Positions 44,671-60,402 of a DNA stretch of 64,000 nucleotides are shown here, piece by piece (position 1 is the stretch's first letter; every line of letters begins with the position of its first letter). A program made the translations under genes and the position numbers. Origin of the DNA: Nakamurella multipartita DSM 44233 (lineage in GTDB: Bacteria; Actinomycetota; Actinomycetes; Mycobacteriales; Nakamurellaceae); assembly GCF_000024365.1 (NCBI RefSeq), contig NC_013235.1, positions 2,542,001 through 2,606,000 on the forward strand, in the 5' to 3' direction. The notes below the pieces were generated by a model. It saw nothing but the letters and a program-made list of their open reading frames with translations, made no database searches and was not told the origin of the DNA.

Positions 44671-44721
44671 CTGATTCGGACACGGCACTGATTCGGACAC
44701 GGCCCTGATTCGGACACGGCA
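44671..44721 (-). repeat. three exact-length 17-bp tandem repeats before the aldehyde dehydrogenase
   Basis: Unit CTGATTCGGACACGGCA repeats at 44671-44687, 44688-44704 (last base C) and 44705-44721. Each contains CGGACA, the half-site seen at the two promoter regions of the locus; a fourth CGGACA is at 44740-44745. It lies in the gap between BMC-H and the aldehyde dehydrogenase, so it may be an internal control element. Confidence 0.8.
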
Positions 44722-44810
44722 CCGTGCTGGGCCCGGCGTCGGACACACGGAAGGGGGTGGAGGCCGCACGCCCGGTACCCCGAGGGGTTGGGCGCCGGGC
44801 GTGCGGACGG

Positions 44811-45131
44811 TCAGCCCTTCGGCCGGGTGAGGATGGCCAGGATGCCTTCGGTCTCCTCGTGCGGCCGTGGGATCACGTGCACGGACACCACCTCGCCGGC
44901 CTTGCCGGCGGCCACCGCGCCGGCATCGGTCGCCGCCTTCACCGCACCGACGTCGCCGCGGACCATGACGGTGACCAGGCCGCCGCCGATCTCCCGGTGG
45001 CCGACGATCTGCACGTTGGCCGCCTTGACCATGGCGTCCGCCGCCTCGATCGCGCCGACCAGGCCTTTGGTCTCGATCAGGCCCAGCGCGCCGCGTGGCC
45101 CGAGGGTGCCGGGCGTGCCCGTGGTGGCCAT
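44811..45131 (-). CDS. BMC-H microcompartment shell protein
   Basis: A 106-residue single-BMC-domain shell protein. Core text is [58 protein letters not shown] and [18 protein letters not shown] 45131 has GGAGG at good spacing. It is the second gene of the shell operon, between BMC-P and the aldehyde dehydrogenase, and closely resembles the solitary BMC-H at 36883, which suggests duplication and possible mixed hexamers. Confidence 0.95.
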
Positions 45132-45186
45132 GGGGTCCTCCAAGTTGGTAGCGGGTGGTGGCCGACTGTTCTGGTCGGCCCGTGGA

Positions 45187-45489
45187 TCAGTGCTTGCGGT
45201 AGGTGACCGCGCCGTCCCGGATCACCGTGTCGGCGATGGCGACGACGGCCCGGTCGGTCGGTACGTGTTGGCCGGCAGTGCCGCTGGCGACCAGGTGAGC
45301 GGCGCTGCCCCCGACGACCAGCACCAGCTCCCCGACCCCGGCGCCGATCAGGTCGACGGCGACGTAGGCCGCTCCCGGGGCACTGCCGGGATCGTCGGCG
45401 GCGTCCTGGACGACCAGCAGGGTGAACCGGTCCAGCCCGGGTTCCTTGACCGTGGCGACCACCTGGCCGAGCACTGTGGCCAACCGCAT
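45187..45489 (-). CDS. BMC-P (EutN/CcmL) vertex protein
   Basis: A 100-residue pentameric vertex protein that closes the icosahedral shell. Family features are [26 protein letters not shown], then [23 protein letters not shown] and [13 protein letters not shown] 45489 has GGAGGTGG nine bases upstream. It is the first gene of the operon, so the promoter lies in 45490-45749. Confidence 0.95.
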
Positions 45490-45517
45490 GCCCGGACCAC
45501 CTCCATTGGTCGTCACA

Positions 45518-45652
45518 TCCCGATCGTGAGTCCCGATCGTGAGTCACCGCTCGGCGCGATGGGCCGCCGACACCACGGACCGTAGGGTGGGTTCCGCGAC
45601 GGGGGCGTTATCCCGTTCGGACAGCATCCCGGGGTGTGGTTGTCCCGGGATG
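45518..45652 (-). promoter_or_regulatory. control region of the BMC operon
   Basis: Contains a 13-bp direct repeat (TCCCGATCGTGAG at 45518-45530 and 45531-45543), a GGACA-N17-TGTCC pair (45619-45623 and 45641-45645) and a perfect inverted repeat CATCCCGGG/CCCGGGATG (45625-45633, 45644-45652). The GGACA pair has the same geometry as before the solitary BMC-H gene, so it is a candidate PucR-type operator for both units. Confidence 0.55.
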
Positions 45653-45749
45653 GCATGGCCGGGGCATCGGTGCGGGCAGAGTCTGACCGGGTGCCGACGG
45701 CCCCGCAGCCGGGTGCCGGCCGCCGCGCCGACCAGGAGGAGGTTCATCG

Positions 45750-46763
45750 GTGATCCGCTCGCAGGACGCCCAGTTCCATCGTCCGACCAGCGACGACCCG
45801 TTGTGGTCGGAGACGAACTACTTCGGCCTGTACGCCGGGCAGGACACCGACCGGCCGATGAACATCGGCATCTACGGGCTGTTCCGGGAGCCGCTGGGCG
45901 TGCTCGGCTCGACGGTTTCGGTGAACAGCCGCCGGGTGACGATGCCCTGGGCGGCCGACTACTGGGACGCCTGGCAGCACCTGGTCGTCCCGCAACCGTC
46001 GAACCTGCTGGATTACTCGCTGGCCAACGGTCTTCGGGTCCGGGCGAGCGAGCCGAACCGGGTGTGGGACGTCGATTATTCCGACCCGGCGGCCGGTCTG
46101 GAGATCCACTTCCGGTACACGGCGCTGATGGAGCCCTACGACATCAACGACCCGACGCAGGACCCGATGGCCGTCGATCGGGACATGTCGTTGACCTGGG
46201 GTCACGCCTACGCCGGCCATTTCGACCAGACCGGCCACTACGAGGGTGAGATCGAGCTGCGCGGGCTGCGCACCCCGATCGATTGCGTGTCGACCATGGA
46301 TCACAGCTGGGGGGTGCGGGCCGAACGGCAGACCTCCCGGTTGAGCTGGATGCACGCGCACTTCTCCCGGGATCTGGTGGTGCACGGCCTGTTCGACTTC
46401 TCCACGCAGGACGGCCCGGACGCGGCGGGCGAGATCCGGATGACCCACGGGTACGTGCTCGAGGACGGAAAGGTGTTCGGGCTCAAGGCCGGCGGCGGGC
46501 GCACCGAACGCGCCGGGTTCTATCCGGAGCGGGTCTCGTTGTCCGTCATCGACTCCGCCGACCGGACCTGGGAACTGACCGGCTCCGCGCTGACCACTTT
46601 CCCGTGGCAGTCGCAACCCGGGGTGGTCGGGCACAACAGCCTGCTGCGCTGGGAGATGAACGGGCGGACCGGCTACGGCGAGGCGATGGACTTCGTCGGC
46701 CTCGGTGAGCTGGGTGAGGTGTACGCCCGGCTGCACCGGACCGGCGTCGCCGCCCGTGGTTGA
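45750..46763 (+). CDS. beta-barrel protein, AttH/CrtC-like (DUF7064/DUF7065-type)
   Basis: A 337-residue protein resembling actinobacterial proteins related to the hydroxyneurosporene synthase (CrtC)/AttH fold. Recognisable stretches are WSETNYFGLYAGQDTDRPMNIG at the start and IDCVSTMDHSWGVRAERQTSRLSWMHAHF in the middle, where a conserved Asp-His-Ser-Trp motif suggests a ligand or active site. No signal peptide. GTG 45750 has AGGAGGAGG upstream. The HAD gene overlaps its stop. Function unknown; lipid, isoprenoid or hydrophobic substrate chemistry is a guess. Confidence 0.6.
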   Translation: MIRSQDAQFHRPTSDDPLWSETNYFGLYAGQDTDRPMNIGIYGLFREPLGVLGSTVSVNSRRVTMPWAADYWDAWQHLVVPQPSNLLDYSLANGLRVRASEPNRVWDVDYSDPAAGLEIHFRYTALMEPYDINDPTQDPMAVDRDMSLTWGHAYAGHFDQTGHYEGEIELRGLRTPIDCVSTMDHSWGVRAERQTSRLSWMHAHFSRDLVVHGLFDFSTQDGPDAAGEIRMTHGYVLEDGKVFGLKAGGGRTERAGFYPERVSLSVIDSADRTWELTGSALTTFPWQSQPGVVGHNSLLRWEMNGRTGYGEAMDFVGLGELGEVYARLHRTGVAARG

Positions 46764-47784
46764 CGCCGATCGCCCGCCGGTGCGGGCGGTGATCTTCGAC
46801 CTGGACGGCACCCTGGTCCAGACCCGGATTGCGTCCTGGGAGATCTTCGCGCGCATCAACGATCGCTTCGAGCTCGGCGTGGACCGGCCGGAGAAGTACT
46901 TCGAGCTGTTCAACGGCAACGTGTTTCGCTCCATCCGCAAGCTGTGCCGGGACGACGCACAGGCGCAGCAGGTGAACGCGGCCTTCCTGGAGCTGCTGCG
47001 CACCGAGTACACGCCGCCGCTGGTACCCGGCATGGCCGAGGTGGTCCGGCGATTGGCCACCGACTGCACCCTGGCCGTCATGTCGTCCAACGCGATGGCG
47101 GTGCTGCGCCGGGTGCTGGTGGCCAACGATCTGGCCTTCTGCTTCGCCCACGTCTTCGGGGGCGATATCGCCCCGGACAAGAAGACGGCCATGCGCAGCT
47201 TCCTGGCCGACGCCGGCAACGGCTACGGCCGCCGGTGCGCCGCCGACTACGACGAGGCCGCCACCCGGCGCGACGCCGACCCGGCCAGCACCGTGCTGGT
47301 CACCGACACCGCCGGCGACGTCAAGGACGCGCTCGCGGTGGGTATCCGCGCGGTCGGGGTGGCCTGGGGCATGCATTCGGTCGACGAGTTGACCCGGGCC
47401 GGGGCCGAGTTCGTCGCGCTGTGGCCGCAGGAGCTGGGCGCGCACATCCTGGGCGACGAGGCGGCCCGACCGCCGCGGGGCGCGTGCGCGGTGCCGGCCG
47501 TGCATCCGGCTCGCGGACCCGAGGCCGTCCGCCCCACCACCCCGGCCTCGGGTTGCGGGTGTGGCTGCAGCGGAAAAGACTGCCCGGTCAAGGACTTCGT
47601 GGTCGGTGACGATCCGGTGCGGCGGGCGGCGGCCATCCGTCGCCGCCGCCGGCAGGGCAGTGCTCCGGTCTCGGCCCCGGCCTCGACCCCGGCCGGCGCC
47701 CTGCCACCGGGGCCGGGGCGACCGTCCGGGCCGCCCCCGGCCGACGAGTTGCTGCAGGCGGTGCGCCGGGTCTGCCGTGCCTGA
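46756..47784 (+). CDS. HAD-family hydrolase with Cys-rich C-terminal region
   Basis: A 342-residue HAD phosphatase-like protein. Motif I is VIFDLDGTLVQTRIASWEIF, motif II LAVMSSNAMA, motif III Lys in IAPDKKTAMR and motif IV VLVTDTAGDVKDAL. After residue 240 the chain is unusual: ASGCGCGCSGKDCPVKDF, a possible metal site, then a basic, Pro-rich tail. Its GTG overlaps the preceding stop and its own stop overlaps the next start, so three genes form one unit. Substrate unknown. Confidence 0.82.
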   Translation: MVDADRPPVRAVIFDLDGTLVQTRIASWEIFARINDRFELGVDRPEKYFELFNGNVFRSIRKLCRDDAQAQQVNAAFLELLRTEYTPPLVPGMAEVVRRLATDCTLAVMSSNAMAVLRRVLVANDLAFCFAHVFGGDIAPDKKTAMRSFLADAGNGYGRRCAADYDEAATRRDADPASTVLVTDTAGDVKDALAVGIRAVGVAWGMHSVDELTRAGAEFVALWPQELGAHILGDEAARPPRGACAVPAVHPARGPEAVRPTTPASGCGCGCSGKDCPVKDFVVGDDPVRRAAAIRRRRRQGSAPVSAPASTPAGALPPGPGRPSGPPPADELLQAVRRVCRA

Positions 47785-48526
47785 CGTGCGGCCGGAGCCG
47801 ACCCGCAGCCCGTTGGTCGGCGCACTGGACTTCCGGGACCTGGGCGGTCTGCCCACCGAGGACGGCCGCCGGCTGCGCCCCGGCGTGCTGGTGCGCAGCG
47901 ACACCCTGCAGGCCTTGACGGCGGCGGACGTCGATTTCCTGGTGACCTCGCTGCGGCTGGAGCTGATCGTCGATCTGCGGGCCGGCCCGGAGGCGGTCGG
48001 CGAGGGGCGCGGGCCGATGGCCGACACCGGGGTGTGTTACCTGAACGCGCCGCTGCGCGACCTGTCCCCGGCCGACGGCGTGCCGCCCGACGAGCAGGCC
48101 CTGCGTTTCTCGCTCGATCACCTGGCCGCCCCGGCCTCCCCGCTGCCCACCGTGGTGCGGGTGCTGTGTGCGTTGGCCGGGCGCCCGGTGCTGGTGCACT
48201 GTGCGGCCGGTAAGGATCGGACCGGCCTGATGATCGCCCTGCTGCTGCGGCTGATCGGCGTCCGCGACGAGCAGATCGTCGCCGACTACCTGCGCACGGC
48301 CGTCCACATGGATCGCATCGTCGCGCGCTTCCTGGGCTGGCCCCGGTACCGCGAGCACATCGCCCGCGTGCCGCCGCAGGTCTACCAGGCGCAGGAGCAG
48401 ACGATCGTCGGCCTGCTGGCCGGGCTGGACCGCGAGCACGGCGGTGCGGCCGGGTGGGCGGCCTCACGGGGGATCACCGAGGACGAGCTGGCGGCGTTGC
48501 GGGCCGGTCTGACCGAACCGGCGTGA
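47777..48526 (+). CDS. PtpB-like tyrosine/lipid phosphatase
   Basis: A 249-residue phosphatase of the PtpB (Y_phosphatase3) group. The N-terminal signature GALDFRDLGGLPTEDGRRLRPGVLVRSD and the active-site loop VHCAAGKDRTGL (Cys-x5-Arg, near residue 137) are clear. PtpB relatives act on phosphotyrosine, phosphoserine and phosphoinositides. GTG 47777 overlaps the HAD stop. Its 3' end overlaps the convergent TetR gene by 53 bases. Confidence 0.88.
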   Translation: MPDVRPEPTRSPLVGALDFRDLGGLPTEDGRRLRPGVLVRSDTLQALTAADVDFLVTSLRLELIVDLRAGPEAVGEGRGPMADTGVCYLNAPLRDLSPADGVPPDEQALRFSLDHLAAPASPLPTVVRVLCALAGRPVLVHCAAGKDRTGLMIALLLRLIGVRDEQIVADYLRTAVHMDRIVARFLGWPRYREHIARVPPQVYQAQEQTIVGLLAGLDREHGGAAGWAASRGITEDELAALRAGLTEPA

Positions 48527-49342: not shown

Positions 49343-50149
49343 ATGGGGCGTGTCGAGGGCAAGGTCGCGTTCATCACCGGGGCGGCCCGGGGTCAGGGGC
49401 GCAGCCATGCGGTGCGGCTGGCCGAAGAGGGCGCCGACATCATCGCGGTCGACATCTGTGCCCAGCTGGACACCGTGCCCTATCCGATGGCCACCCCCGA
49501 GGATCTGGCCCAGACGGTCAAGGAGGTCGAGGCGCTCGACCGCCGGATCGTCGCCCTGCCGGCCGATGTGCGCGACGCCGCCGCGTTGCGGGAGGCGGTC
49601 GAGCGCGGCGTGGCCGAACTCGGGCGACTCGACATCGTCTGCGCCAACGCCGGTATCTGCACCATCCAGGCCTGGGACGAGGTGACCCCGGCCGCCTGGC
49701 AGGACACCCTGGACACCAACCTCACCGGGGTCTGGAACAGCATGGTCGTGGCGATCCCGCACCTGATTGCGGCCGGCGGCGGCTCGATCATCGCCACCAG
49801 CTCCACCGCCGGCATCAAGGGCCTGCCGTTCCTGGCGCCCTACGTGGCCGCCAAACACGGCGTCGTCGGGATCGCCAGATCGCTGGCCAACGAGCTGGCC
49901 AAGCACCACATCCGGGTCAACACCGTGCACCCGACCGGGGTGGACACCCCGATGGTTTCCGGGCTCGGGGGCCTGGAGACGTTGCTGGGCCGGGACCCGA
50001 ACCTGGGGCCGATCTTCATGAACACGCTGCCGGTGGAGATCGTCGACCCGCGCGACATCAGCAACGCCGTGCTCTTCCTGGCCTCCGACGAGGCCCGATA
50101 TGTCACCGGACTGGAATTCACCGTCGACGCCGGAAACACCATCCGCTGA
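49343..50149 (+). CDS. mycofactocin-coupled SDR family oxidoreductase (copy 1)
   Basis: A 268-residue short-chain dehydrogenase of the mycofactocin-associated type (carveol dehydrogenase-like): ITGAARGQGRSHAVRLAEEGADIIAVDIC, followed by the characteristic insertion after strand 2 (DTVPYPMATPEDLAQTVKEVE). Catalytic Ser is in IIATSST, Tyr/Lys in YVAAKHG, and the end [20 protein letters not shown]. Such enzymes hold NAD non-exchangeably and pass electrons to mycofactocin. It is the first of three tandem copies. Confidence 0.9.
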   Translation: MGRVEGKVAFITGAARGQGRSHAVRLAEEGADIIAVDICAQLDTVPYPMATPEDLAQTVKEVEALDRRIVALPADVRDAAALREAVERGVAELGRLDIVCANAGICTIQAWDEVTPAAWQDTLDTNLTGVWNSMVVAIPHLIAAGGGSIIATSSTAGIKGLPFLAPYVAAKHGVVGIARSLANELAKHHIRVNTVHPTGVDTPMVSGLGGLETLLGRDPNLGPIFMNTLPVEIVDPRDISNAVLFLASDEARYVTGLEFTVDAGNTIR

Positions 50150-50183
50150 CGGTGACCCGACCACGAAGAAGGAGTGCATCAGC

Positions 50184-51017
50184 ATGGGTCGAGTAGAAGG
50201 CAAGGTCGCCTTCGTCACCGGGGCCGCGCGGGGTCAGGGCCGCAGCCACGCCGTCCGGCTGGCCGAGGAGGGGGCCGACATCATCGCGATCGACATCTGC
50301 GACCAGATCGACACGGTGCCGTTCCCGATGGCCTCACCGGCCGACCTCGAGCAAACCGTGAAAGAGGTCGAGGCCCTCGACCGGCGCATCGTCGCCGTCC
50401 AGGCCGACGTGCGGGACTACGACGCGCTGAAATCGGCCGTCGATGCCGGGGTCGCCGAGCTCGGCCGGCTCGACATCGTCAGCGCCAACGCCGGTATCGC
50501 GGGTGGGAACCGGCCGTCGTGGGAGCAGAGCGAGCAGGAGTGGCACAACACGATCGACGTCAACCTGACCGGGGTCTGGCACACGGCCAAGGCGGCCGTG
50601 CCGCACCTGCTGGCCGGTGAACGGGGCGGCTCGATCGTGCTGACCAGCTCGGCGGCCGGCCTCAAAGGCATGCAGAACATCTCCGACTACGTCTCGGCCA
50701 AGCACGGTGTCGTCGGTCTGATGCGCACGCTGGCGCTGGAACTGGCTCCGCACAGCATCCGGGTGAACAGCGTCCACCCGACCGTGGTGAACACCCCGAT
50801 GATCCAGAACAGCTGGACCGCCGGGCTTTTCCGGCCCGACCTGGAGAATCCGACGATCGAGGACGCGCACGAGGTGTTCCGCAGCCTGAACGTGCTGCCG
50901 ATCCTGTGGGTGGAACCGGTGGACATCAGCAACGCGGTGCTGTTCCTGGCCTCTGACGAGGCCCGGTACATCACCGGGGTCACCCTGCCCGTCGACGCCG
51001 GTTTCGGCATCAAGTAA
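50184..51017 (+). CDS. mycofactocin-coupled SDR family oxidoreductase (copy 2)
   Basis: A 277-residue paralogue 34 bases after copy 1. It has VTGAARGQGRSHAVRLAEEG, the long insertion with DTVPFPMASPADLEQTVKEVE, VLTSSAAG, and active-site YVSAKHG. The C-terminal segment NSWTAGLFRPDLENPTIEDAHE is longer than in copy 1, in the substrate-binding loop, so a different alcohol may be used. ATG 50184 has AAGAAGGAG upstream. Confidence 0.9.
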   Translation: MGRVEGKVAFVTGAARGQGRSHAVRLAEEGADIIAIDICDQIDTVPFPMASPADLEQTVKEVEALDRRIVAVQADVRDYDALKSAVDAGVAELGRLDIVSANAGIAGGNRPSWEQSEQEWHNTIDVNLTGVWHTAKAAVPHLLAGERGGSIVLTSSAAGLKGMQNISDYVSAKHGVVGLMRTLALELAPHSIRVNSVHPTVVNTPMIQNSWTAGLFRPDLENPTIEDAHEVFRSLNVLPILWVEPVDISNAVLFLASDEARYITGVTLPVDAGFGIK

Positions 51018-51028
51018 GGGGAGCACCG

Positions 51029-51861
51029 GTGACCGGACGAGTAGCGGGCAAGGTCGCGTTCGTGACGGGTGCCGCGCGCGGGCAGGGGCGCAGCCACGCG
51101 CTCCGGCTCGCCGAGGAGGGCGCCGACATCATCGCGGTCGACATCTGCGACCAGATCGACACCGTCCCGTACGGGATGGCCACGCCGGCCGACCTGGAGC
51201 AGACGGTCAAGGAGATCGAGGCGCTTGATCGCCGCATCGTCGCGGTGCAGGCCGACGTGCGCGACTTCGGTGCCGTGCGGGCCGCCGTGGACGCGGGCGT
51301 GGCCGAACTGGGCCGGCTGGACATCGTCTGCGGCAACGCCGGCATCTTCAGTTTCGCGGCCGGCGGCGCCGACCTGGACGAGTCGATGTGGTCGGACATG
51401 ATCGATGTCAACCTCACCGGGGTCTGGCACACCGCGAAAGCGGCGGTGCCGCATCTGATCGCGGCCGGCGGCGGGTCCGTCGTGCTGACCAGCTCGACGG
51501 CCGGGCTCAAGGGTACCCCAACTTCGCGCACTACGTCTCGGCCAAACATGGTGTGGTCGGCCTGATGCGGACGTTGGCGCTGGAACTGGCCCCGCACCGC
51601 ATCCGGGTCAACACGGTGCATCCGACCAGCGTGGACACCGACATGGTGCAGAACGAGGCGACCTGGTCGCTGTTCCGCCCCGATCTCGCCACACCCACCA
51701 GCGAGGATGCCCGGGCCACGTTCCAGAGCATGAATGCGCTGCCCATTCCGTGGGTCGAACCCCGGGACATCAGCAACGCGGTGCTGTTCCTGGCCTCCGA
51801 CGAGGCCCGCTACATCACCGGCGTCACGTTGCCGGTGGATGCCGGCTCGACCCAGCGATAA
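51029..51861 (+). pseudogene. mycofactocin-coupled SDR (copy 3), frameshifted
   Basis: The start GTG 51029 and first 160 codons match copies 1 and 2 (VTGAARGQGRSHALRLAEEG, insertion with DTVPYGMATPADLEQ). At GGG 51511-51513 one G is missing: the frame runs into PTSRTTSRP and stops at 51565, while the correct continuation ([28 protein letters not shown]) is in another frame to 51861, including active-site Tyr and Lys. Either a recent inactivating deletion or a sequencing error. The downstream part is otherwise intact, with no stop codons, pointing to a very recent event. Confidence 0.88.
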
Positions 51862-51869
51862 GGACGGCG

Positions 51870-52844
51870 ATGACAGCGATCGCGGCGGCCAACGGTCGCC
51901 CGGCACCGGCCGGCGGTTCGGGCCGGCTGATGGCCGCGGCCGACGTGATCGCCATTCGGCAACGGGTCGCTGCATCCATCGTCGGCCGCGAGCGCGAACT
52001 GGACCTCGTGCTCGCGGCCGTCGCGGCCGGGCGGGACCTGGTGCTCGAGGGTCCGCCCGGCACCAGCAAGACCACGATGCTCAAGGCGATCACCGCCCAG
52101 TGGGGCATCCCGTTGCTGTTCGTGGAGGGCAACGCCGACCTGACCCCGGCCAAAATCGTCGGGCACCACAACCCGGCCCGGGTGCTGCGGGAGGACTACA
52201 GCGCCGACAACTTCGTCCCCGGGCCCCTGGTCGAGGCCATGCGAGACGGCGGGTTCCTCTACATCGAGGAGTTCAACCGGGCCCCCGAGGACACCTTGAA
52301 CACCCTGCTCACCGCGATCGCCGACCGGGCGATCGCGGTGCCGCGGGTCGGCACCGTCACCGCGGCCGCCTCCTTCCGGGTGATCGCCTCGATGAACCCC
52401 TACGACAACGTCGGCACCACCCGGCTGTCGACCTCCGTGCACGACCGGCTGTGCCGGCTGGCGATCGACTACCAGGACGAGCCGGCCGAGCGGGCGGTGG
52501 TGGCGCTGCGCGCCCCGGATGTGCCGGCCGGCCTGGGCTCTCGCCTGATCCCGGACGGGGTCGCGCTCACCCGGGCCACCCGGACCCACCCCGACGTCCG
52601 GCAGGGCAGCAGCGTGCGCGGCGCGATCGACACCGTACTGGTCGCCGCGGAACTGTGCGCCCTGCGCGGAATCTCCGATCCCGGCGACACCGATTACGTC
52701 GAGACCGTCTTCGACGCCATGATCGTCGCCCTGTCCGGTCGTATCCATCTGGACGAGGCGGCCGAGACCACGGCGGAGCAGGTGCTCCGGGAGATCTTCC
52801 AGGATCACTTCGTGCTGGACCCGGCGGCCGCCCGGCCCGGTTGA
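51870..52844 (+). CDS. MoxR/NorQ-type AAA+ ATPase
   Basis: A 324-residue AAA+ ATPase of the MoxR group (NorQ/CbbQ-like), which with a VWA partner remodels or inserts cofactors into enzymes. Walker A is LEGPPGTSKTTMLKAI near residue 60, Walker B GGFLYIEEFNRAPEDTLNTLL near 130, and sensor 1 RVIASMNPYDNVGTTRLS near 175. It starts nine bases after the third SDR gene and the VWA gene follows six bases after its stop. Client unknown; the neighbouring unrecognised enzyme genes are candidates. Confidence 0.92.
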   Translation: MTAIAAANGRPAPAGGSGRLMAAADVIAIRQRVAASIVGRERELDLVLAAVAAGRDLVLEGPPGTSKTTMLKAITAQWGIPLLFVEGNADLTPAKIVGHHNPARVLREDYSADNFVPGPLVEAMRDGGFLYIEEFNRAPEDTLNTLLTAIADRAIAVPRVGTVTAAASFRVIASMNPYDNVGTTRLSTSVHDRLCRLAIDYQDEPAERAVVALRAPDVPAGLGSRLIPDGVALTRATRTHPDVRQGSSVRGAIDTVLVAAELCALRGISDPGDTDYVETVFDAMIVALSGRIHLDEAAETTAEQVLREIFQDHFVLDPAAARPG

Positions 52845-52850
52845 AGAGCG

Positions 52851-53840
52851 GTGGCCGCCGATTCGCCGCTGCGCCGGCCCGGCCGTCGGCCGGCCACGTC
52901 GCGCTCACCCCTGCGGCGCCGGCCCAAGCAACTGACCAGCCCGCCGACCGTGTTCGTCCCGGTCGGGGGCGGCGGCACCGGCCTGGTCTGGGGCGCCCGG
53001 CCCGGCGGATCGCCCCACTCGCCCACCCCGGCCGGCGGTTCGGCGCCGGGCCTGACCGACGAGACCGCCCGCGTGGTCGACGCCGCCGACCTGGTCGGCG
53101 GTCGCCGCGAGCACGAGGCGGCGGTCCGGGCGCAGGCCCGGCAGATCGCCGCCCGCCTGTCCGTGCCCCTGCCCCGGCACGACGCGTCGGCCCGGCGCGG
53201 GGCAGGCAGCCTGGCCAGCCTGCCCTACCGGGGCGGCGCGGACGAGATCGATCTGGACCGCACCATCGAGGTCCTGGCCGAACGCCCGGTGCCCGACGAC
53301 GAGGACATCGTGGTCCGCGATCGGGTCCGCACCCGGCGGTCGGTGGTCCTGGTCGTGGACGTGTCCGGGTCGATGCGCGGTGAGCGGGTCCGCACGGCCG
53401 CGGCGACCGTCGCCGCGCTGGCCGCCGAACTGCACCGGGATCACCTGGCGGTCATCGCCTTCTGGTCCGACGCCGCCGTGGTGGCACCACTCGGGGCCCC
53501 GGTCCGGCCGCTGGATCTGCTTGACCGGATCCTGGCCCTGCCGGCCCGCGGCCTGACCAACGTGGCCTTCCCGTTGCAGCTGGCCGGCGAGCAGCTGGCC
53601 CGGGTGCCGGTGCGGGACGCGCGGGTGGTGCTGCTGTCCGACTGCGTGCACAACGCCGGCCCCGATCCCCGAATCGAGGCTGCTCGGCTGCCGAGAGTGG
53701 ATGTACTGCTGGATGTCTCGGGCGAGAACGACCGGGAACTGGGTCGCCAGCTGGCCCGGTCCGGCCGCGGCCGGCTCGCCCCGATCCGCACCTACCGCGA
53801 CGTCGCGCCGGCACTGCGATCGGCATTCGGCGACCGCTGA
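52851..53840 (+). CDS. VWA-domain protein, partner of the MoxR ATPase
   Basis: A 329-residue protein with a basic, Pro-rich N-terminal third and a VWA domain from about 165. The MIDAS motif is intact: VVLVVDVSGSMRGERV, the Thr in LTNVAFPL and the Asp in VVLLSDCVHNAG. MoxR-VWA pairs (NorQD, CbbQO) bind a metalloenzyme client through the VWA domain. The start is GTG 52851. The stop abuts the convergent membrane gene with no space (53840/53841). Confidence 0.9.
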   Translation: MAADSPLRRPGRRPATSRSPLRRRPKQLTSPPTVFVPVGGGGTGLVWGARPGGSPHSPTPAGGSAPGLTDETARVVDAADLVGGRREHEAAVRAQARQIAARLSVPLPRHDASARRGAGSLASLPYRGGADEIDLDRTIEVLAERPVPDDEDIVVRDRVRTRRSVVLVVDVSGSMRGERVRTAAATVAALAAELHRDHLAVIAFWSDAAVVAPLGAPVRPLDLLDRILALPARGLTNVAFPLQLAGEQLARVPVRDARVVLLSDCVHNAGPDPRIEAARLPRVDVLLDVSGENDRELGRQLARSGRGRLAPIRTYRDVAPALRSAFGDR

Positions 53841-55169
53841 TCACGAGTCCCAGATGGGGCCGTAGGCGGCGATGCCGTCCGCCCGCAGCCGGCCGACCAC
53901 CCGCATGGTGGCCTTCTTGTTCGAGATGCACACGACCGCCTCGGCCCCGGTCTCCCGGCAGACCCGGGCGGCCAGCTGGGCCAGATCGGGCTTGCCGTCG
54001 GCGTCGGTGTCCCAGATCAGCGCGTCCGGCTGGGCCGCCATGATCTGCGCGACCAGCTCGCGGCCGTAGGTGCGCTCAGGGTTCCGGGTCACCCAGATCA
54101 GCCGGGCCGGGGTCGGGTCGCCCAGCAGGTGCGGCAGGCACGGCGCGATCCCGCTGCCGGTGGCGACCCACACCACCCGGGTGAACAGGCGGGACACCGA
54201 GCCGACGCCGGTCGTCGGCACGCCCTTGACCCAGACGTGGTCGGGCCGGTCGGCGATGAACTCCGAGGTCCAGCCGCCGGCCCGGGACACCGCCATCCGG
54301 TACTCGGTCGAGCCGGGCACGGTCATGTTGGCGAAGGCGTGCCACTGGCCCAGTGGGCGCCGCGCGATCCGGCTGGCCGACCCGGTGCGGACGGACCGGC
54401 CGCGATTCACCGTCACCAGGGCGACGTGTTCCGACGGCGCCGCGACTTGCACCGCCGCTCGCCGCAGCTGCAACCACGGCAGGATCGCCGCCACCGCCGC
54501 CAGCAGCAGGATCCAGGTGTTGGGGGAGTCGGCGACGGTCAGCTCCCACGAACCGGCCGGACCCCGGGTCGTCACGACCCCGAACAGCACGGTCAGTACG
54601 GCGAAGAGCGCCAGGGCCAGCCAGCCACCGAAACGATGAGTGGCCTCGAACAGGTCATGGTGCCGCTCGCGCATCCGCGGGACCGCGCAAATCGTCATGA
54701 TCACCAGCACCACCAGGATCGCGGCGGCCACCCCGAACGCCGCCGTCCAGGCCGCCCCACCGGTCAGCACCCGCCAGCCGACCAGCGCGGTGAAGGCGCC
54801 GAACCACCCGGTCGCCGCGATGGCGCTGCCGACGTGGATGCCGGCCAGCACCTGATGGACCTGCGCGAGCGCGGCCCGCACTCGTAGCGGCCAGGAATGC
54901 GGCGCCGCGGTGACCCCTCCGAACACCGCGTTGACCACATCCTGTTGCCGCACGAGCGCGGCCGTCCCGATGGCCACGCTGGCCGCCGTAATGGTGGCCG
55001 TGACCAGCCCGGACCAGGAGAGCCCCCGATCGAGCAGTGCGGCGGCGGCGACGGCATGCAGGCCGACCACCGCCAGCAGGGTGCTCACGAACGGCCGGAT
55101 CGCCGATGCGGTCCGGTCGGTCGTCGGGTCCTGCCGATCCGGCCGCCGGCTCAGGATTCTCGTGCTCAT
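53841..55169 (-). CDS. six-helix membrane protein with C-terminal reductase-like domain
   Basis: A 442-residue integral membrane protein. Six helices are visible (around residues 24-45, 52-70, 100-127, 135-160, 178-198 and 208-228), then a cytoplasmic part with VWVATGSGIAPCLPHLL, resembling the nucleotide-binding loop of ferredoxin-NADP reductase-type proteins, and DALIWDTDADGKPDLAQLA. The pattern is like membrane-bound ferric-reductase relatives and the membrane proteins seen beside adenylate-forming reductases, but haem-ligand His pairs are not obvious. Start ATG 55169 has GGGAG upstream. It is not clearly in the same operon as the PPDK-like gene. Confidence 0.65.
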   Translation of the reverse strand: MSTRILSRRPDRQDPTTDRTASAIRPFVSTLLAVVGLHAVAAAALLDRGLSWSGLVTATITAASVAIGTAALVRQQDVVNAVFGGVTAAPHSWPLRVRAALAQVHQVLAGIHVGSAIAATGWFGAFTALVGWRVLTGGAAWTAAFGVAAAILVVLVIMTICAVPRMRERHHDLFEATHRFGGWLALALFAVLTVLFGVVTTRGPAGSWELTVADSPNTWILLLAAVAAILPWLQLRRAAVQVAAPSEHVALVTVNRGRSVRTGSASRIARRPLGQWHAFANMTVPGSTEYRMAVSRAGGWTSEFIADRPDHVWVKGVPTTGVGSVSRLFTRVVWVATGSGIAPCLPHLLGDPTPARLIWVTRNPERTYGRELVAQIMAAQPDALIWDTDADGKPDLAQLAARVCRETGAEAVVCISNKKATMRVVGRLRADGIAAYGPIWDS

Positions 55170-55324
55170 GGCGACCACTCCCGCAGGTTGTGCGCTCCCG
55201 GTTGGTTCCGGTAGTCACCACCATCGGCCAGCGCAGGGTGCGGCACCGTCGGTCGATCGGGGGATCGACCGGTGGATCGTGGGGTCCCCCGATCGGCGGA
55301 CAAGCACCCGCCGGCGCGGTCGGG

Positions 55325-57808
55325 TCAGGCGGTCGCGGCCCGGCCCAGCGCCAGCACCAGCGGCCGGGTCTCGGGGGTGGAGATCGCGAACCGGCGAAAC
55401 CCCAGCCGGTACAGCTGCTCGACCACCGCCTCCGACACCTCGCCGGCCAGCCGCACCCCGACCCGGGCCGGGCCGGACACCGCGGGCACCCCGGTCAGCA
55501 GACGGTGCACCGAGGGGTCCAGCGTGGTCCGGGGGTCGAGCGCCAGCAACCCCCGCCGCAGGTAGCCGTCCAGCGGCTCGGCGGTCAGCAGCAGCCGGGG
55601 CGGCAGGCCGAACATCGCCGCCTGCAACGAGCGGACCTCCAGCCAGATCACCGGGCAGGACGTCGCGATGGCCTCGATGGCCTGCACCGCGCGCGGGCTG
55701 GTCAGGTAGGACCCGACGGGAATGCCCGACTCACCAGCGATCTCGCGCAGCAACCGGGCCTCGGCCGGGTCGCTGATGTGCCGGACGGCCAAGTGCACCC
55801 GGGCCGTGCCGCCGGCCGCGGCGACGGCCCGCGACAGCCCCGCCAGCTGGGCCTCGACCAGCGCCCGCCGGCCCAGCGGCAGCGACAGCTCCGGGTTGCG
55901 GGTGGTCACCGCGGTCTGCTGCAACAGCTCGCGGGACTCGTCGGCGACCAGGTCGATCGCCCGCACCCCGACCTCCAGCTCACCGGCCCGGGCCAGGATC
56001 GGGGTGAGCTCCTGCGCGACCAGGTCGGTGAAGCGTTCGAACTCGTCGTCCTCGCGGGTCGGGCCGGCCAGCAGGTGCGCGATCAGGCCGTCCAGGTGTC
56101 CGGTGGCGGCCAGCACGTCGTCGATCGCGGTGACCAGCCCGGTGCACCCGGCTGCGCGGGCCGGCTCGACGTCGGAGGGCAGGGTGACCCGGCTGAGCAC
56201 CTCGGTGCCGCTCGCGTCGGCCGCGATCGCCAGCAGCCGATCCAGGGCACCGGAGGCGGCGGCGGGGGTCGCGGCGGCGAAGGCCCCGGCGAACAGCTCC
56301 CCGGTGGACCCGTCCAGCGACACCGGGTCACCCTCGCGCAGCGTTCGCTCGCCGGCCCGCAGGATGCGGGCCGCCGGGTCGATGTGCAGCTCGCCGGCCC
56401 CGACCACGCAGCAGGTGCCCAGGGCCCGGGCGACCACCGCGGCGTGACTGGTCGACCCGCCGGTGGCGGTGACGATGCCGCGGGCGGCGATCATCCCGTG
56501 CAGGTCGGCCGGGCTGGTCACCGCGCGGGCGAGCACGACGGCCTCGCCGGCCTCGGCCCGCGCCTTGGCCCGGTCCGGGTCCAGCACCAGGGCGCCGCTG
56601 ACCTGCCCCGGGCAGGCGCCGATGCCGGTGGTCACCAGCCGCCCGCCGTCCCGGGCCGCGGCGATCTCGGCCGGGTCGAACCCCGGCCGCTGCACCTGGC
56701 GCACCTGGGCGGCCGAGACCGTCCGCAGTGCGGCCGGCCGGGTCGCGGTGCCCTCGTCGACCAGATCGGCGGCGATGCGCACCGCGGCCTCCGGGGTCCG
56801 CTTGGCCGCGCGGACCTGCAGCAGGTAGAGCACCGATCGTTCGACGGTGAACTCGATGTCCAGCACGTCGCCCTGGGCCCGCTCCAGGGCCGCGCAGGTC
56901 GAGCGCAGCTCGCCGAGCACCGTCGGGGCCAGGGCCTGCACCACCGGGTCGGGGGTCCGGGTGCCGGCGACCACGTCCTCACCCTGGCTATGGGCCAGAT
57001 ACTCGCCGAACAGGCCGGGTTCGCCGGTCACCGGGTTGCGGGTGAAGACCACGCCGGATCCGGAATCGTCGGACAGGTTCCCGAACACCATCGACTGCAC
57101 GACCACGGCGGTGCCCAGATCGTGCGGGATGGCGTGGAAGTCGCGATAGGTGCGGGCCCGTCGGGTGTTCCAGGAGCGGAAGACGGCCTCCACCGCACCC
57201 ATCAGCTGATCGCGGGGATCGGCCGGCACCGAGTCCCCGGTGTCCTGCGCCAGCGCCTGCTCGCACGCCGCCCACACCCGGTCGTAGACGACGCCGGGAT
57301 CCTCGTCGGCCGCGACCCCGGCGACCACCCGATCCACCCCCGCGCCGGGATCCAGCGCCCCCAGCACGGTCTCGGAATACATCGCGTGGAAGCGGGCGAC
57401 CACGTCGGCGACGAACCGGCTGTCCCCGGTGGCCGTGCCCAGCGCCAGCGCGCTGGCCCGGTTGATGCCCAGGTTCAAGATGGTGTCCATCATGCCGGGC
57501 ATGGAGATCGGCGCGCCCGAGCGCACCGAGAGCAACAGCGGCACCGGCCCGCCGCCGAACACCTTGCCGCTGGCCCGCTCCAGATCGTCCAAGCGATGCA
57601 GGATCTCCTCGACCAGGCCGTCGGGCAACCGGTTCTGGGCCAGGTAGGAGCGGCAGGCGGGGGTGCCGATGATGTACCCGGGGGGCACCGGCAGCTGCTG
57701 CTGGGACATCCGGGCCAGACCGGCGCCCTTGCCGCCGAGGCGGTCCACGTCGGCCGGATCGGCCTCGGCGAAGGTGAGCGTGTAGCCGGCGAACGCGGTC
57801 ACGCTCAT
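55325..57808 (-). CDS. PPDK/PEP synthase-like protein with divergent C-terminal domain
   Basis: An 827-residue protein. The ATP-grasp half is pyruvate phosphate dikinase-like: GGKGAGLARM near 25, SVRSGAPISMPGMMDTILNLG near 94, GSGVVFTRNPVTGE near 251, DIEFTVERSVLYLLQVR near 317. The mobile domain has phosphohistidine His455 in TGGSTSHAAVVARALG. The last 320 residues, however, lack the RTEHMF motif and the catalytic-Cys region of the PEP/pyruvate barrel; text such as EPARAAGCTGLVTAID remains. It may make a phosphohistidine and pass it to another acceptor. Its start overlaps the preceding gene's stop. Confidence 0.85.
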   Translation of the reverse strand: MSVTAFAGYTLTFAEADPADVDRLGGKGAGLARMSQQQLPVPPGYIIGTPACRSYLAQNRLPDGLVEEILHRLDDLERASGKVFGGGPVPLLLSVRSGAPISMPGMMDTILNLGINRASALALGTATGDSRFVADVVARFHAMYSETVLGALDPGAGVDRVVAGVAADEDPGVVYDRVWAACEQALAQDTGDSVPADPRDQLMGAVEAVFRSWNTRRARTYRDFHAIPHDLGTAVVVQSMVFGNLSDDSGSGVVFTRNPVTGEPGLFGEYLAHSQGEDVVAGTRTPDPVVQALAPTVLGELRSTCAALERAQGDVLDIEFTVERSVLYLLQVRAAKRTPEAAVRIAADLVDEGTATRPAALRTVSAAQVRQVQRPGFDPAEIAAARDGGRLVTTGIGACPGQVSGALVLDPDRAKARAEAGEAVVLARAVTSPADLHGMIAARGIVTATGGSTSHAAVVARALGTCCVVGAGELHIDPAARILRAGERTLREGDPVSLDGSTGELFAGAFAAATPAAASGALDRLLAIAADASGTEVLSRVTLPSDVEPARAAGCTGLVTAIDDVLAATGHLDGLIAHLLAGPTREDDEFERFTDLVAQELTPILARAGELEVGVRAIDLVADESRELLQQTAVTTRNPELSLPLGRRALVEAQLAGLSRAVAAAGGTARVHLAVRHISDPAEARLLREIAGESGIPVGSYLTSPRAVQAIEAIATSCPVIWLEVRSLQAAMFGLPPRLLLTAEPLDGYLRRGLLALDPRTTLDPSVHRLLTGVPAVSGPARVGVRLAGEVSEAVVEQLYRLGFRRFAISTPETRPLVLALGRAATA

Positions 57809-58422
57809 TCGACCCGTTCCCGGCCCAGCGTGCGCAGCAGGTCCTCGTGGAACTCGAACCAGACGGTGTGCACGGAGTCCAGTGTGGGGGAGGAGACGAA
57901 CTCGGCCTGCCCGCCGTCGACGGCGGCCATCGCCGCGGCGAACCGGGTGGCGTAGCCGGCGAACCGTGGGTCGTGCCCGGCCAGCGCGTCGATGAGCGGG
58001 GTCAGCCGGGCGACCAGCTTGTCGATCCGGCTGATGATCTTGTCGTCGTACTCCGCGTCGGTGTGATCGTTGGCCACCTTGCGGCCGCCCACGTCGATCT
58101 GTTGCCAGAGCGAGATCGTCGTCAGGAATTGGGCGTTGACCGTCTCGAACCGGTCCACCAGGGCCAGCACGGCGGGGTCGGTGCGCAGGGCCGCGTACCG
58201 ATCGGCGGCGGCCGCCCGCAGCGCCGGTTCGGCCTCGTCGGTGGGCAGCGCCGCGCCCCCGGCGACGAACACCACACCGTCCGCGGCCAACCGGGCGAAG
58301 GCGTCCTGCACCGCTTGCGCCGGGACGGCGATCACCTGGGTGACGGCGGCCGCGGTCGCCATCTTCTTCAGGGCCACCACGTTGAGCACGTCGTAGTCGG
58401 TCGTATCGAGCACCACAACCAT
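57805..58422 (-). CDS. unrecognised 205-residue protein of the PPDK-like operon
   Basis: A soluble protein of unknown family. The N-terminus MVVVLDTTDYDVLNVVALKK and VFVAGGAALPTDEAEPALRA suggest a Rossmann-like start; the rest is helical (LVDRFETVNAQFLTTISLWQQID). AAGGAA lies at good distance before ATG 58422. Its stop overlaps the PPDK-like start (ATGA), so a 1:1 protein ratio is likely, as for subunits of a complex. Confidence 0.75.
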   Translation of the reverse strand: MVVVLDTTDYDVLNVVALKKMATAAAVTQVIAVPAQAVQDAFARLAADGVVFVAGGAALPTDEAEPALRAAAADRYAALRTDPAVLALVDRFETVNAQFLTTISLWQQIDVGGRKVANDHTDAEYDDKIISRIDKLVARLTPLIDALAGHDPRFAGYATRFAAAMAAVDGGQAEFVSSPTLDSVHTVWFEFHEDLLRTLGRERVE

Positions 58423-58497
58423 CGTCGGTTCCTTACATGCGATCGGGGGCGGCGCCTGGGCTGCGCCGCCCCCGACGGGAGCCTGCCGGAGAAAGGA

Positions 58498-59934
58498 TCA
58501 GAGCCAGCGGTACTTGGACCGGCGCCGATCGGCGTTGTCGGAGAAGGGCAGGTAGCCCGCTCCGGAGAAGATCTTGCTGGGCACGGTCTCCTGGGCGAAA
58601 CCGCGCTTGGTGATGTCGTAGTAGTAGTTGGCGACCCGCTGGTCGATCTCCCACAGGTCGTAGTCCCGGCACGCCTTCTCGTAGGCGCCGGCCAGCCGCA
58701 TGTGCGGCAGGATCATGTCGACGTAGTAGACGTACTGACCGTTCCAGATCAGGTCCCGCCGGCACATCCTGGCGGTCTTGCTGTAGAGCTTGAAGGTCGC
58801 CGCCCGCACCCGCTCCAGGTGGTCGTCCAGCTCGTCGATGGCGATGTGGTTGACCTGGCCCATCGGGGTGTTCCACTTCTCCCGGGAGAACACCGCGCCC
58901 CCGACGATCGCGTCGATGTAGTTCTTGGGCCGGGTGAAGGTGGTCGAGATGTCGTTGACCCGGATCTCGGCCAACGCCATCTTCTCCGGATCGATGACGA
59001 TGGCCAGCGTGTAGGCGTGCGGTAGGCCGGCGTCCTCGCAGACGTCGCTCCAGTGGAAGACCTCTTCGTTGACGAACAGGTCGCGCAGGATGAGCAGGTT
59101 GCCGTCGGGCAGCTCGTACGGCCCGGTGTCACCCAGCCCCAGCCGGCAGTCGTAGTGGTCCAGGAACGAGAGCAGTTCGGCCGCCGCGTTGAACTGGGTG
59201 AACGCGCCGTGCTTGGGGCTGCCCGCCTCCAGCGGCTCCACCTGCGCGGTGAGGGTGGCCAGGAAGTCGGGTTCATGGATGCGGCAGCGGTAGCGGTCCT
59301 GGGAGTTGAGGATGTAGCCGTCCTGCCGCTTGCCCCACAGGATCCGCTGCATGAACTTGAGGATCTCGTTGGACTCCTCCTCGATGTAGTCGTCCGGGCC
59401 GATCACCTCCAGCGCCAGCAGGCCGCAGCGGCCCATGCCGAAGCCGACCGCCCCGATGCACCAGTCGTGCACCGCGTTGACCTTTGTGCCGATCTCCCGG
59501 CGGGCCGACGCGCCGATGTCCATCACACCCTGGGGACCGCCGGCCTCGTCGGTGGTCATCCGCAGGATCTCCGGCCACCGGTAGAACTCGTGCATGAAGG
59601 CGAGGATCTCGTATTCCTGGCGCGGGATCATGCCGCTGACGCCCTCGGTGGCGCGCATGACCAGCACGTCCCAGATGTTCCAGGCCAGGTAGTTGTTCAG
59701 ATCATTGAGCTCGTCGATCGTGAACTGGTCGCGCAGCACGTCGTCCTTCGAGACGCGTTCCAGCACGCCGCTCTTGGCGCGCGAGCGCATCATCTTGTCG
59801 CCCTTGATGCCGTCGGTGACGGGTTCGAGGCCGACGAAATTGCCGGTGTAGGTCAGGTCCTGAAAGCGCAGGCCGTCGTCGGCCGCTTCGTACCGCTGCT
59901 GGTACGTCGAGCGCTTGTTTTCCATGGTCGTCAT
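58498..59934 (-). CDS. unrecognised 478-residue protein of the PPDK-like operon
   Basis: A large, well-formed soluble protein rich in aromatic, acidic and His residues, unlike a membrane or DNA-binding protein. Striking stretches are YLAWNIWDVLVMRATEGVSG, EILAFMHEFYRWPEILRMT, VNAVHDWCIGAVGFGMGRCG, NEEVFHWSDVCEDAGLPHAY and WNGQYVYYVDMILPHMRLAG. I do not recognise the family. Position between a phosphohistidine protein and a PPDK-like protein suggests the substrate-binding catalytic subunit. AGGAG precedes ATG 59934; Met4 (59925) is an alternative. Confidence 0.8.
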   Translation of the reverse strand: MTTMENKRSTYQQRYEAADDGLRFQDLTYTGNFVGLEPVTDGIKGDKMMRSRAKSGVLERVSKDDVLRDQFTIDELNDLNNYLAWNIWDVLVMRATEGVSGMIPRQEYEILAFMHEFYRWPEILRMTTDEAGGPQGVMDIGASARREIGTKVNAVHDWCIGAVGFGMGRCGLLALEVIGPDDYIEEESNEILKFMQRILWGKRQDGYILNSQDRYRCRIHEPDFLATLTAQVEPLEAGSPKHGAFTQFNAAAELLSFLDHYDCRLGLGDTGPYELPDGNLLILRDLFVNEEVFHWSDVCEDAGLPHAYTLAIVIDPEKMALAEIRVNDISTTFTRPKNYIDAIVGGAVFSREKWNTPMGQVNHIAIDELDDHLERVRAATFKLYSKTARMCRRDLIWNGQYVYYVDMILPHMRLAGAYEKACRDYDLWEIDQRVANYYYDITKRGFAQETVPSKIFSGAGYLPFSDNADRRRSKYRWL

Positions 59935-59982
59935 TGACTCATTGCTCCTGTCCGAGTGGCCGCGAGAACGTCAGGGAAGGGA

Positions 59983-60402
59983 TCAGTTCTCGGCCACCAC
60001 CCGGCCGACCTCGTGATCCGTGCAGTCCAATCGCACCTTGCGGCCGTCCAGCGATCCGGCGATCTCCTCGAAGTGGGATTCGTCGGTGTTTCCGACGACA
60101 TACCGGGACTCGCTCCCGGTCAAATGGGCGGTCATCACGCACGGCGTCTGGAATTCGCGGGACAGGATGCCCAGGTGCGATTCCGGGGCCCCGGACATGG
60201 TGATCACCCCGATGGCCCCCATGCTCAGGGCCGGGGCCAGGAAAGTGGTGGTTCCGCCGCGCACCAACAGGATGTGCTCGGCCAGCTTGCCGGACTGGAT
60301 CAACGAGATCACGTCGGCCGGCGAGGCCAGGTACTTCACCGTCCCCGAGGGCGATTTCGCAGTGTCGAAGACGTTGAATCCCTCGGCGAGCACCTCAGCC
60401 AT
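59983..60402 (-). CDS. free-standing PEP-utiliser mobile (phosphohistidine) domain protein
   Basis: A 139-residue protein consisting essentially of the swivelling phosphohistidine domain of PEP synthase/PPDK. The active His76 is in SGAPESHLGILSREFQTPCV, matching the TSHxxIxxRExxxPxV signature. A separate copy exists in the PPDK-like protein. The ribosome site AAGGAGGAACTTC before ATG 60402 is the strongest in the operon, and it is the first gene. Such stand-alone mobile domains occur in phenylphosphate synthase-like systems, where they carry phosphate to a substrate. Confidence 0.87.
   Translation of the reverse strand: MAEVLAEGFNVFDTAKSPSGTVKYLASPADVISLIQSGKLAEHILLVRGGTTTFLAPALSMGAIGVITMSGAPESHLGILSREFQTPCVMTAHLTGSESRYVVGNTDESHFEEIAGSLDGRKVRLDCTDHEVGRVVAEN

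Follow-up and report, generated by a model that had tools for sequence, protein, structure and literature searches.

A 64,000-nt stretch of the genome of Nakamurella multipartita DSM 44233 (contig NC_013235.1, positions 2,542,001–2,606,000; hereafter the window, to which coordinates refer unless stated otherwise) carries, next to a bacterial microcompartment (BMC) locus, a cassette of four genes that very probably encodes one four-part phosphohistidine kinase; we consider it equally probable that the cassette feeds the BMC pathway. On balance, we favour a scheme in which this phosphohistidine dikinase and a phospho-lyase/isomerase encoded in the BMC locus would act on a small tertiary alcohol, with the aldehyde derived from it being oxidised inside a MIC1-like BMC. 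The gene set, its co-occurrence and fusions, the intact and lost sites, the fold matches and the neighbouring genes are observed in the sequences; the reactions, the order of the relay and the substrate are inferred from them.

The cassette forms an operon on the reverse strand (55325–60402), as a preliminary description of this DNA had proposed. Its first gene (59983–60402) encodes PHIS, a free-standing phosphohistidine (swivel) domain of 139 aa that scores over the PF00391 cut-off and carries the motif SGAPESHLGILSR; the ATG start at position 60402 is preceded by AAGGAGG. After a gap of 48 bases follows the gene for H478 (58498–59934), an orphan protein of 478 aa and the proposed substrate-binding subunit, and after a further 75 bases that for MarR205 (57805–58422), a helix-turn-helix (HTH)-like protein of 205 aa whose name reflects nothing more than a weak MarR_2 match that stays under the Pfam cut-off. 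The last gene (55325–57808) overlaps the MarR205 gene by 4 bases and encodes the putative phosphoryl donor, an 827-aa protein resembling pyruvate phosphate dikinase (PPDK) and composed of an ATP-grasp domain (PPDK_N over cut-off), a swivel domain and a degenerate phosphoenolpyruvate (PEP)/pyruvate barrel. A promoter scan gave no hits.

Only residues 10–558 of the PPDK-like protein, which include the swivel motif GGSTSHAAVVAR, could be aligned with solved PPDKs. Among 55 PPDK-like sequences the ATP-grasp residues checked are kept wherever present, apart from two positions at each of which a single sequence deviates; all 55 have the swivel His. The PEP/pyruvate sites, mapped via the genome's own canonical paralogue and numbered after the Clostridium symbiosum enzyme, present a different picture: R617 is kept in 51 sequences (four gaps) and D769 in two, whereas no sequence retains R561, E745, N768 or C831. 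Since hhalign still relates the barrel to the canonical paralogue (local P = 6e-12), it appears to be a decayed barrel. Given that the ATP-grasp residues and the His are kept while the pyruvate/PEP site is lost, the donor is predicted to load phosphate from ATP and should not make PEP. The possibility that it is an ordinary PPDK, named in the preliminary description as fatal to its proposal, can therefore be dismissed on sequence grounds: most of the PEP/pyruvate residues of the barrel are gone, and a canonical PPDK of 908 aa with the motifs looked for is encoded elsewhere in the genome, at 4.50 Mb.

The PHIS profile is related to that of the PPDK swivel (P = 4.9e-6), and 86 of 87 tblastn alignments, a number of them showing one gene in overlapping loci, retain the phospho-accepting His of PHIS; since this His is conserved as well, the cassette has two phosphohistidine domains. 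In MarR205 the conserved residues DSxHxxWFExHED and GRxR lie in the C-terminal part (58 sequences). For H478 neither Pfam nor NCBIfam gave a match, and none among the PDB sequences was convincing, its profile retrieving from them four matches at chance level (best E = 0.39). Foldseek with its AlphaFold2 model (pLDDT 87) gave nothing at E ≤ 0.001, and the best VIA-align Z was 3.5, which does not by itself prove a new fold. HpeH, of the known dikinase HpeHI, is related to the rifamycin phosphotransferase (RPH) family (PMC12167813). Comparison of H478 with RPH by hhalign yielded P = 0.34 for the whole protein, 0.5 for a middle slice that is crude because the RPH open reading frames (ORFs; 901–1396 aa) were taken from stop to stop, and 0.65 for a reversed control; with four RPH sequences the power is limited, PHIS itself reaching only P = 0.015 and the PPDK family 9e-11. 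RPH was not among the fold matches listed for H478, which is no evidence that the folds differ. We propose, by elimination, that H478 is the substrate-binding part. An RPH-type gene over the NF041857 cut-off is present at genome positions 682914–685424.

Searches with H478 retrieved 56 distinct loci (69–88% identity) ranging from Actinomycetota to Alphaproteobacteria, in hosts that include Pseudonocardia, Amycolatopsis, Actinomycetospora, Gordonia, Nocardia, Bradyrhizobium, Xanthobacter, Methylocella, Endobacter and a metagenome-assembled genome (MAG) of Eremiobacterota. Neighbours were counted by tblastn (E 1e-5) on the flanks of these loci. Of all the sequences analysed, two (L060 and L155), for which our own gene finder gave nothing, were judged by tblastn alone. 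PHIS accompanies H478 at 55 loci, being absent solely from L064, where H478 itself is incomplete, and MarR205 and PPDK each do so at 51. In four of the five loci lacking the latter two the contig stops at once (L018, L030, L055, L058); the fifth, L044, has a long flank and is an exception to the unity of the cassette. PPDK is found at 39 of the 40 loci with full flanks. Distant cassettes also occur (H478 identity 22–39%), and in four distant records (L067, L090, L091, L093) PHIS, H478 and MarR205 form a single ORF of 769–793 aa; L067 encodes a separate PPDK of 557 aa that lacks the C-terminal barrel. This fusion, together with the co-occurrence, argues for one enzyme.

MarR205 relatives are present in 15 of 101 genomes of the same order. 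Three of these (L115, L116, L117) encode a MarR205 homologue with a short PPDK-like protein (488–522 aa, no PEP barrel) and have neither H478 nor PHIS in the 20 kb seen, which suggests that MarR205 belongs with the donor half. These pairs resemble the Rv1127c–Rv1126c pair. For the four operon genes, the co-occurrence that the preliminary description suggested looking for holds in the main, the four being a recurring unit; its opposite, that they would be scattered in relatives, is encountered only in exceptions, namely a Methylibium plasmid with parts in three places (see below), L044, L087 (order PPDK-PHIS-H478, no MarR205 seen) and the PPDK–MarR205 pairs just mentioned. In the family Nakamurellaceae the cassette occurs in two of 17 genomes, that of the window included, and a search of one guessed group, around G111, which may not hold the cassette, gave none in 300 genomes.

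Several further observations concern the surroundings of H478 relatives. In several Pseudonocardia (L057, L024, L017) genes that by eye resemble those of the methionine/one-carbon cycle lie upstream of the cassette. Small actinobacterial genomes of 2.2–2.6 Mb (L095, L074–L077) encode H478 relatives of ~530 aa (28–29% identity) beside a PHIS-like gene. The distant cassettes L069, L070 and L113 have AMP-ligase, thiolase-like and phosphatase genes nearby, with biotin carboxylase too in L069 and L070, and these neighbourhoods bring to mind a pathway of the Hpe type that uses another kinase.

The BMC locus (36883–48526), overlooked in the preliminary description together with the phospho-lyase-like protein and the carboxylase link, adjoins the region and is the main partner of the cassette. 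Shell genes are present in 47 of the 56 flanks, and four of the other nine have BMC-T elsewhere in the genome (51 of 56); the genome-wide shell search covered BMC-T. Among the loci with full flanks, shell genes are found at 34, and the BMC-locus proteins h337 and HAD at 35 each. Cassette proteins and BMC proteins show correlated pairwise distances (r of 0.77–0.97), values that include no species-tree control. A homologue of the regulator REG705 occurs at 22 of the 56 loci, and the BMC-less cassettes L041, L047 and L049 likewise have one nearby.

At the window's locus the forward strand encodes a BMC-H shell protein (BMCa, 36883–37188; PF00936). On the reverse strand follow the PucR/GAF regulator REG705 (37213–39330; PF13556 and GAF), a zinc-type alcohol dehydrogenase (39351–40385; alcohol dehydrogenase (ADH) family matches, all below cut-offs), a lactate/malate-dehydrogenase-like protein with a long N-terminal extension (40382–41767; PF00056, PF02866), the CcmP-like double BMC-T shell protein BMC209 (41764–42393; PF00936; NF053796 at 255 bits versus a cut-off of 340), a EutJ-like chaperone (42390–43259; over the NF011660 and TIGR02529 cut-offs), a EutE-like CoA-acylating aldehyde dehydrogenase (43261–44658; TIGR02518 at 470.6 bits, below the cut-off of 620.1), a second BMC-H protein (BMCb, 44811–45131; PF00936) and a BMC-P pentamer of the EutN/CcmL type (45187–45489; PF03319). 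The forward strand then encodes h337 (45750–46763), a DUF7064/DUF7065 protein over the PF23212 cut-off, a HAD phosphatase (46756–47784; HAD families) and PTP, a protein of tyrosine-phosphatase fold (47786–48526; PF13350), in place of which SurE is found at L033, L034, L059 and L066.

HAD was detected at 45 of the 56 loci by tblastn, 39 of them recovered by the gene finder. At loci with shell genes it ends in a Pro/Ala-rich linker and a short helix-like stretch resembling an encapsulation peptide. All 36 HADs recovered from such loci are at least 298 aa long, whereas those of three BMC-less isolates (236–268 aa) lack the tail; in L054 and L056 no clear helix is seen by eye. The tail is not just a matter of lineage, since the BMC-bearing Proteobacteria L038, L042 and L055 have it. 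PHIS, H478, MarR205, PPDK and h337 have the same lengths with or without a BMC. The kinase and h337 are thus probably cytosolic and HAD lumenal, in which case a phosphate ester would cross the shell, favouring a rearrangement over a simple elimination.

The candidate phospho-lyase/isomerase, h337, is encoded in 44 of the 56 flanks; of the 12 genomes left, 11 carry it as well (55 of 56 in all), the MAG of L052 being the exception. The PDB structure best matching its AlphaFold2 model (pLDDT 92.6) is 25-phosphosteroid lyase (Foldseek E = 1.6e-11; VIA-align Z = 23.8, rmsd 3.2, 272 residues aligned); AttH, which ties with it in VIA-align (see below), and kievitone hydratase (Z = 20.1) come next. 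When the h337 profile was compared with all PDB sequences, this lyase alone was retrieved up to E = 1 (E = 0.0049 and 0.054). The PDB entry 9g4c, presumably an active-site variant, has N instead of D in the DxSWGxR motif. The lyase route begins with phosphorylation of a tertiary steroid alcohol, from which the phosphate is subsequently eliminated, and the phosphoryl-transfer potential of such tertiary phosphoesters is slightly above that of ATP (PMC8449060). A dikinase would spend more than one phosphoanhydride bond and may be used for this reason. We think it likely, with somewhat less assurance than for the kinase itself, that h337 acts on the phosphate product of the cassette. An h337 relative (34%) on a Rhodococcus ruber plasmid (L148) lies beside two phosphotransferase-family genes and a set of P450, ADH and aldehyde dehydrogenase (ALDH) genes, which may represent a similar use of the lyase together with a kinase of a different type.

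In the scheme that we favour, the PPDK-like protein would move phosphate from ATP onto its own swivel His and, together with MarR205, hand it to the His of PHIS, a transfer suggested by the decay of its PEP/pyruvate site. PHIS would phosphorylate a small alcohol bound by H478, probably a tertiary and allylic one, after which h337 would ionise the tertiary phosphate and either eliminate the phosphate or shift it to the primary carbon. A phosphatase would free the primary alcohol, which the alcohol and acylating aldehyde dehydrogenases in the BMC would convert to an acyl-CoA, most likely 3-methylcrotonyl-CoA, to be consumed by 3-methylcrotonyl-CoA carboxylase (MCC). The idea of an ATP-driven phosphohistidine set for a hydroxylated or carbonyl substrate, already put forward in the preliminary description, gains support from the sequences, the substrate looking like a small hydroxylated molecule.

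Clues to the product come from neighbouring genes. In a Nakamurella congener (L149) the BMC genes are followed by genes for HMG-CoA lyase (NF004283, 369 versus 246 bits), enoyl-CoA hydratase, MCC beta and MCC alpha, the last of which carries the MCC-specific PF21139 (BT domain). MCC genes flank the locus in five genera (Nakamurella L149, Rhodococcus oxybenzonivorans L066, Nocardia jiangxiensis L153, the Microbacterium MAG L156 and Endobacter L047); the genome of the window does encode an MCC-like carboxylase, but at a great distance from the locus, at 1.89 Mb. The L047 carboxylase is 67% identical to one encoded by a Xanthobacter operon with the gene order MCC-hydratase-MCC-HMG-CoA lyase. Against TIGR01117 the L047 and L066 carboxylases score 299 and 334 bits, and the best copy in five of six genomes 738–760 bits. 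As we take these high scorers to be of the propionyl-CoA type, a propionyl-CoA pathway was rejected. ADH, CoA ligase and ALDH genes lie beside the BMC-less cassettes L041 and L049. On the strength of the MCC, HMG-CoA lyase, hydratase and ADH/ligase/ALDH neighbours, 3-methylcrotonyl-CoA is a product that we would put at an even chance.

The plasmid of Methylibium petroleiphilum PM1 (L147, 454–457 kb) bears on the substrate. Its BMC locus includes h337 (50%), HAD and PPDK, with PHIS degraded and H478 truncated, and a divergent second set is located ~25 kb from it. These relatives lie among tert-butyl-alcohol genes and near those of 2-hydroxyisobutyryl-CoA mutase; judging from gene order, these neighbours ought to correspond to Mpe_B0541/B0538 and Mpe_B0555/B0554, which PMC4517660 gives as mutase and tert-butyl alcohol hydroxylase. 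According to PMC4791888, an isomerisation of 2-methyl-3-buten-2-ol to prenol may take place in PM1, Aquincola and Pseudomonas putida MB-1, by enzymes uncharacterised as of 2016, and a sequence from prenol through prenal to 3-methylcrotonyl-CoA fits both the BMC and the MCC genes. In this hemiterpene version, which we hold only tentatively, the dikinase with its two phosphohistidines would form the energy-rich phosphate of 2-methyl-3-buten-2-ol, h337 would turn it into prenyl phosphate, lumenal HAD would release prenol, and prenal, which is toxic, would be oxidised to 3-methylcrotonyl-CoA inside the shell. That the substrate is some tertiary alcohol seems to us evenly balanced; that it is 2-methyl-3-buten-2-ol in particular, the best-fitting candidate, is a possibility we rate clearly lower. 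The latter idea came from the neighbouring genes, before the match to 25-phosphosteroid lyase was seen.

A number of points weigh against the scheme. H478, to which substrate binding was assigned by elimination, has no known relative. Of the 71 sequences scanned, five contained MCC genes; several of the 71 share a genome and many do not extend far enough for MCC to be visible. There are none in the window, in Pseudonocardia L151 and L152 or in Cryobacterium L154, the last three of which all reach past the BMC. The ADH-ligase-ALDH set also occurs beside the BMC cassettes L031 and L066, with parts in L033, L035 and L059. Five cassette-bearing genomes gave no BMC-T match; two are MAGs (L015, L030) but three are isolates, Methylocella silvestris, Endobacter medicaginis and Xanthobacter oligotrophicus. 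PTP is present in 15 of the 56 flanks only. The HAD tail was called by length and eye; HADs with shell genes (0.37–0.95) and those without (0.41–0.62) cannot be told apart by the hydrophobic moment of their last 20 residues. As for h337, AttH (Z = 22.9) ties with the lyase in VIA-align, hydratases and pericyclases share the fold, and the sequence match to the lyase covers 48 residues, including DxSWGxR. With a simple elimination the HAD and PTP/SurE phosphatases would have no obvious job, and a rearrangement that retains the phosphate has been assumed.

Other readings of the cassette can be set against the tertiary-alcohol scheme. BMCs normally begin with an aldehyde-forming enzyme, and the same kinase and lyase might make an aldehyde from a 1,2-diol as a B12-free replacement of diol dehydratase (e.g. 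isobutyraldehyde from 2-methylpropane-1,2-diol): one hydroxyl would be phosphorylated, the phosphate eliminated and the enol converted to the aldehyde, as in the classical metabolosome scheme. A sister BMC (L084; BMC-T 57% identical) that by eye encodes proteins like EutABC/ethanolamine ammonia-lyase and has no cassette in the 14 kb seen would suit such a replacement, as would the mutase genes near the PM1 relatives. Nevertheless, the neighbouring carboxylases look like the 3-methylcrotonyl-CoA rather than the propionyl-CoA type, HMG-CoA lyase and hydratase follow in the congener, and the phosphatases would be left unexplained, so that we regard a diol as unlikely. Somewhat less likely still is a phenolic substrate, phosphorylated as by CreHI, HpeHI and PpsAB, with the BMC handling a side-chain aldehyde. 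The known two-component dikinases do act on phenols (PMC12167813), and the neighbourhoods of the distant cassettes L069 and L070 (biotin carboxylase, thiolase and phosphatase genes) and L067 (P450, ferredoxin and phosphatase genes) recall the Hpe pathway (PMC9618137). They are reminiscent of the Cre pathway too. This reading is difficult to reconcile with the C5 link provided by MCC and with a lyase relative that works on a phosphorylated tertiary alcohol, and H478 has no profile similarity to RPH, within the limited power of that comparison.

A regulatory phosphorelay that senses PEP or the energy state and controls the BMC genes, rather than a metabolic kinase, would accommodate the weak MarR-type HTH match and the known use of phosphohistidine in systems like the PEP-dependent phosphotransferase system. 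We consider it very unlikely: many loci have a separate PucR/GAF regulator, four ORFs join MarR205 with the swivel and H478 in one protein, the PEP-site residues are lost, and the large and strongly conserved H478 would be left without a role. The lowest probability, close to nil, is given to the version of the preliminary description, in which mycofactocin-type short-chain dehydrogenases/reductases (SDRs) oxidise the alcohols and a MoxR-VWA pair matures an enzyme of the set. In this one genome the genes concerned do lie between the BMC and the cassette, the genome has an MftC-type gene over cut-off, and MoxR/VWA genes are near the distant cassette variant L113. The genes themselves are largely as described: SDR1 (49343–50149) and SDR2 (50184–51017) score over the TIGR03971 cut-off (398 and 424 bits; cut-off 300), and MoxR (51870–52844) and VWA (52851–53840) are real, but SDR3 is split over two overlapping frames (51029–51565 and 51553–51861), being either frameshifted or a sequencing error. 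A membrane-protein-like gene between VWA and PPDK (53841–55178) has no Pfam match over cut-off. The proposed link to the cassette did not survive the comparison of loci. MoxR and VWA were found in none of the 56 flanks, and matches to SDR1, SDR2 and SDR3 in seven, six and six, at ~30% identity except in L030 (50–56%); MoxR, VWA, the membrane protein and an FAD oxidase are absent from all 40 full-flank loci. In the congener PTP, HAD, h337 and the BMC genes follow the cassette with no SDR, MoxR or VWA between. The SDR, MoxR and VWA genes were therefore rejected as parts of the system.

No description of the system was found in the open-access literature, in searches not aimed at DUF7064 or 25-phosphosteroid lyase. 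These searches gave nothing that joins PPDK with mycofactocin or Nakamurella with a microcompartment, and only unrelated matches were obtained for PPDK with microcompartment shell proteins and for BMC with Xanthobacter and Pseudonocardia. If correct, the tertiary-alcohol scheme would join three questions, the starting chemistry of MIC1, the enzyme converting 2-methyl-3-buten-2-ol to prenol and the target of truncated PPDK proteins, by supplying the missing step to prenol and the missing signature module of the MIC1 type. It would also mean that the kinase-lyase pair acting on steroids is not the only route by which tertiary alcohols can be removed, such as those derived from fuel ethers and plant emissions.

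By gene content the BMC resembles the MIC1 metabolosome, as judged from the description in the main text of PMC4207490 and not from the published member list. Shared are the aldehyde dehydrogenase, the lactate/malate-dehydrogenase-like and zinc alcohol dehydrogenases, a hydrolase, a phosphatase and an MreB-like protein (PMC4207490), as well as a single CcmP homologue (PMC5853799). The gene classes given in that main text are present at the locus, except that one further dehydrogenase could not be pinned down and PTAC was not sought as such. The published type is said to lack a signature enzyme (PMC4207490), and MIC2–7 are likewise listed without an obvious one (PMC8217296), whereas for the Nakamurella locus a candidate is now proposed.

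The kinase shares with PPDK the ATP-grasp and swivel domains, the checked ATP-site residues and the His, and differs from it in the largely lost PEP/pyruvate site. With HpeHI, CreHI and PpsAB it has in common a catabolic setting in which an ATP-grasp protein, a phosphohistidine swivel with a conserved phospho-accepting His and a substrate-binding part (a role proposed here for H478) occur together, followed, as with HpeHI, by a phosphatase. In contrast to these, the Nakamurella set consists of four proteins with two phosphohistidine domains in the order swivel-H478-MarR205, its donor is of PPDK descent and has a PEP barrel in decay, and H478 is not detectably related to RPH, in comparisons of limited power with four RPH sequences. 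The closest parallel to the kinase-lyase pair is the ATP-dependent dehydration of anaerobic cholesterol degradation, where 25-hydroxysteroid kinase is likewise combined with a lyase of the h337 fold with DxSWGxR. The kinase there is a single protein acting on a steroid, and the published enzyme barely acts on small tertiary alcohols (<0.1%; PMC8449060), whereas in Nakamurella a dikinase would serve a small compound.

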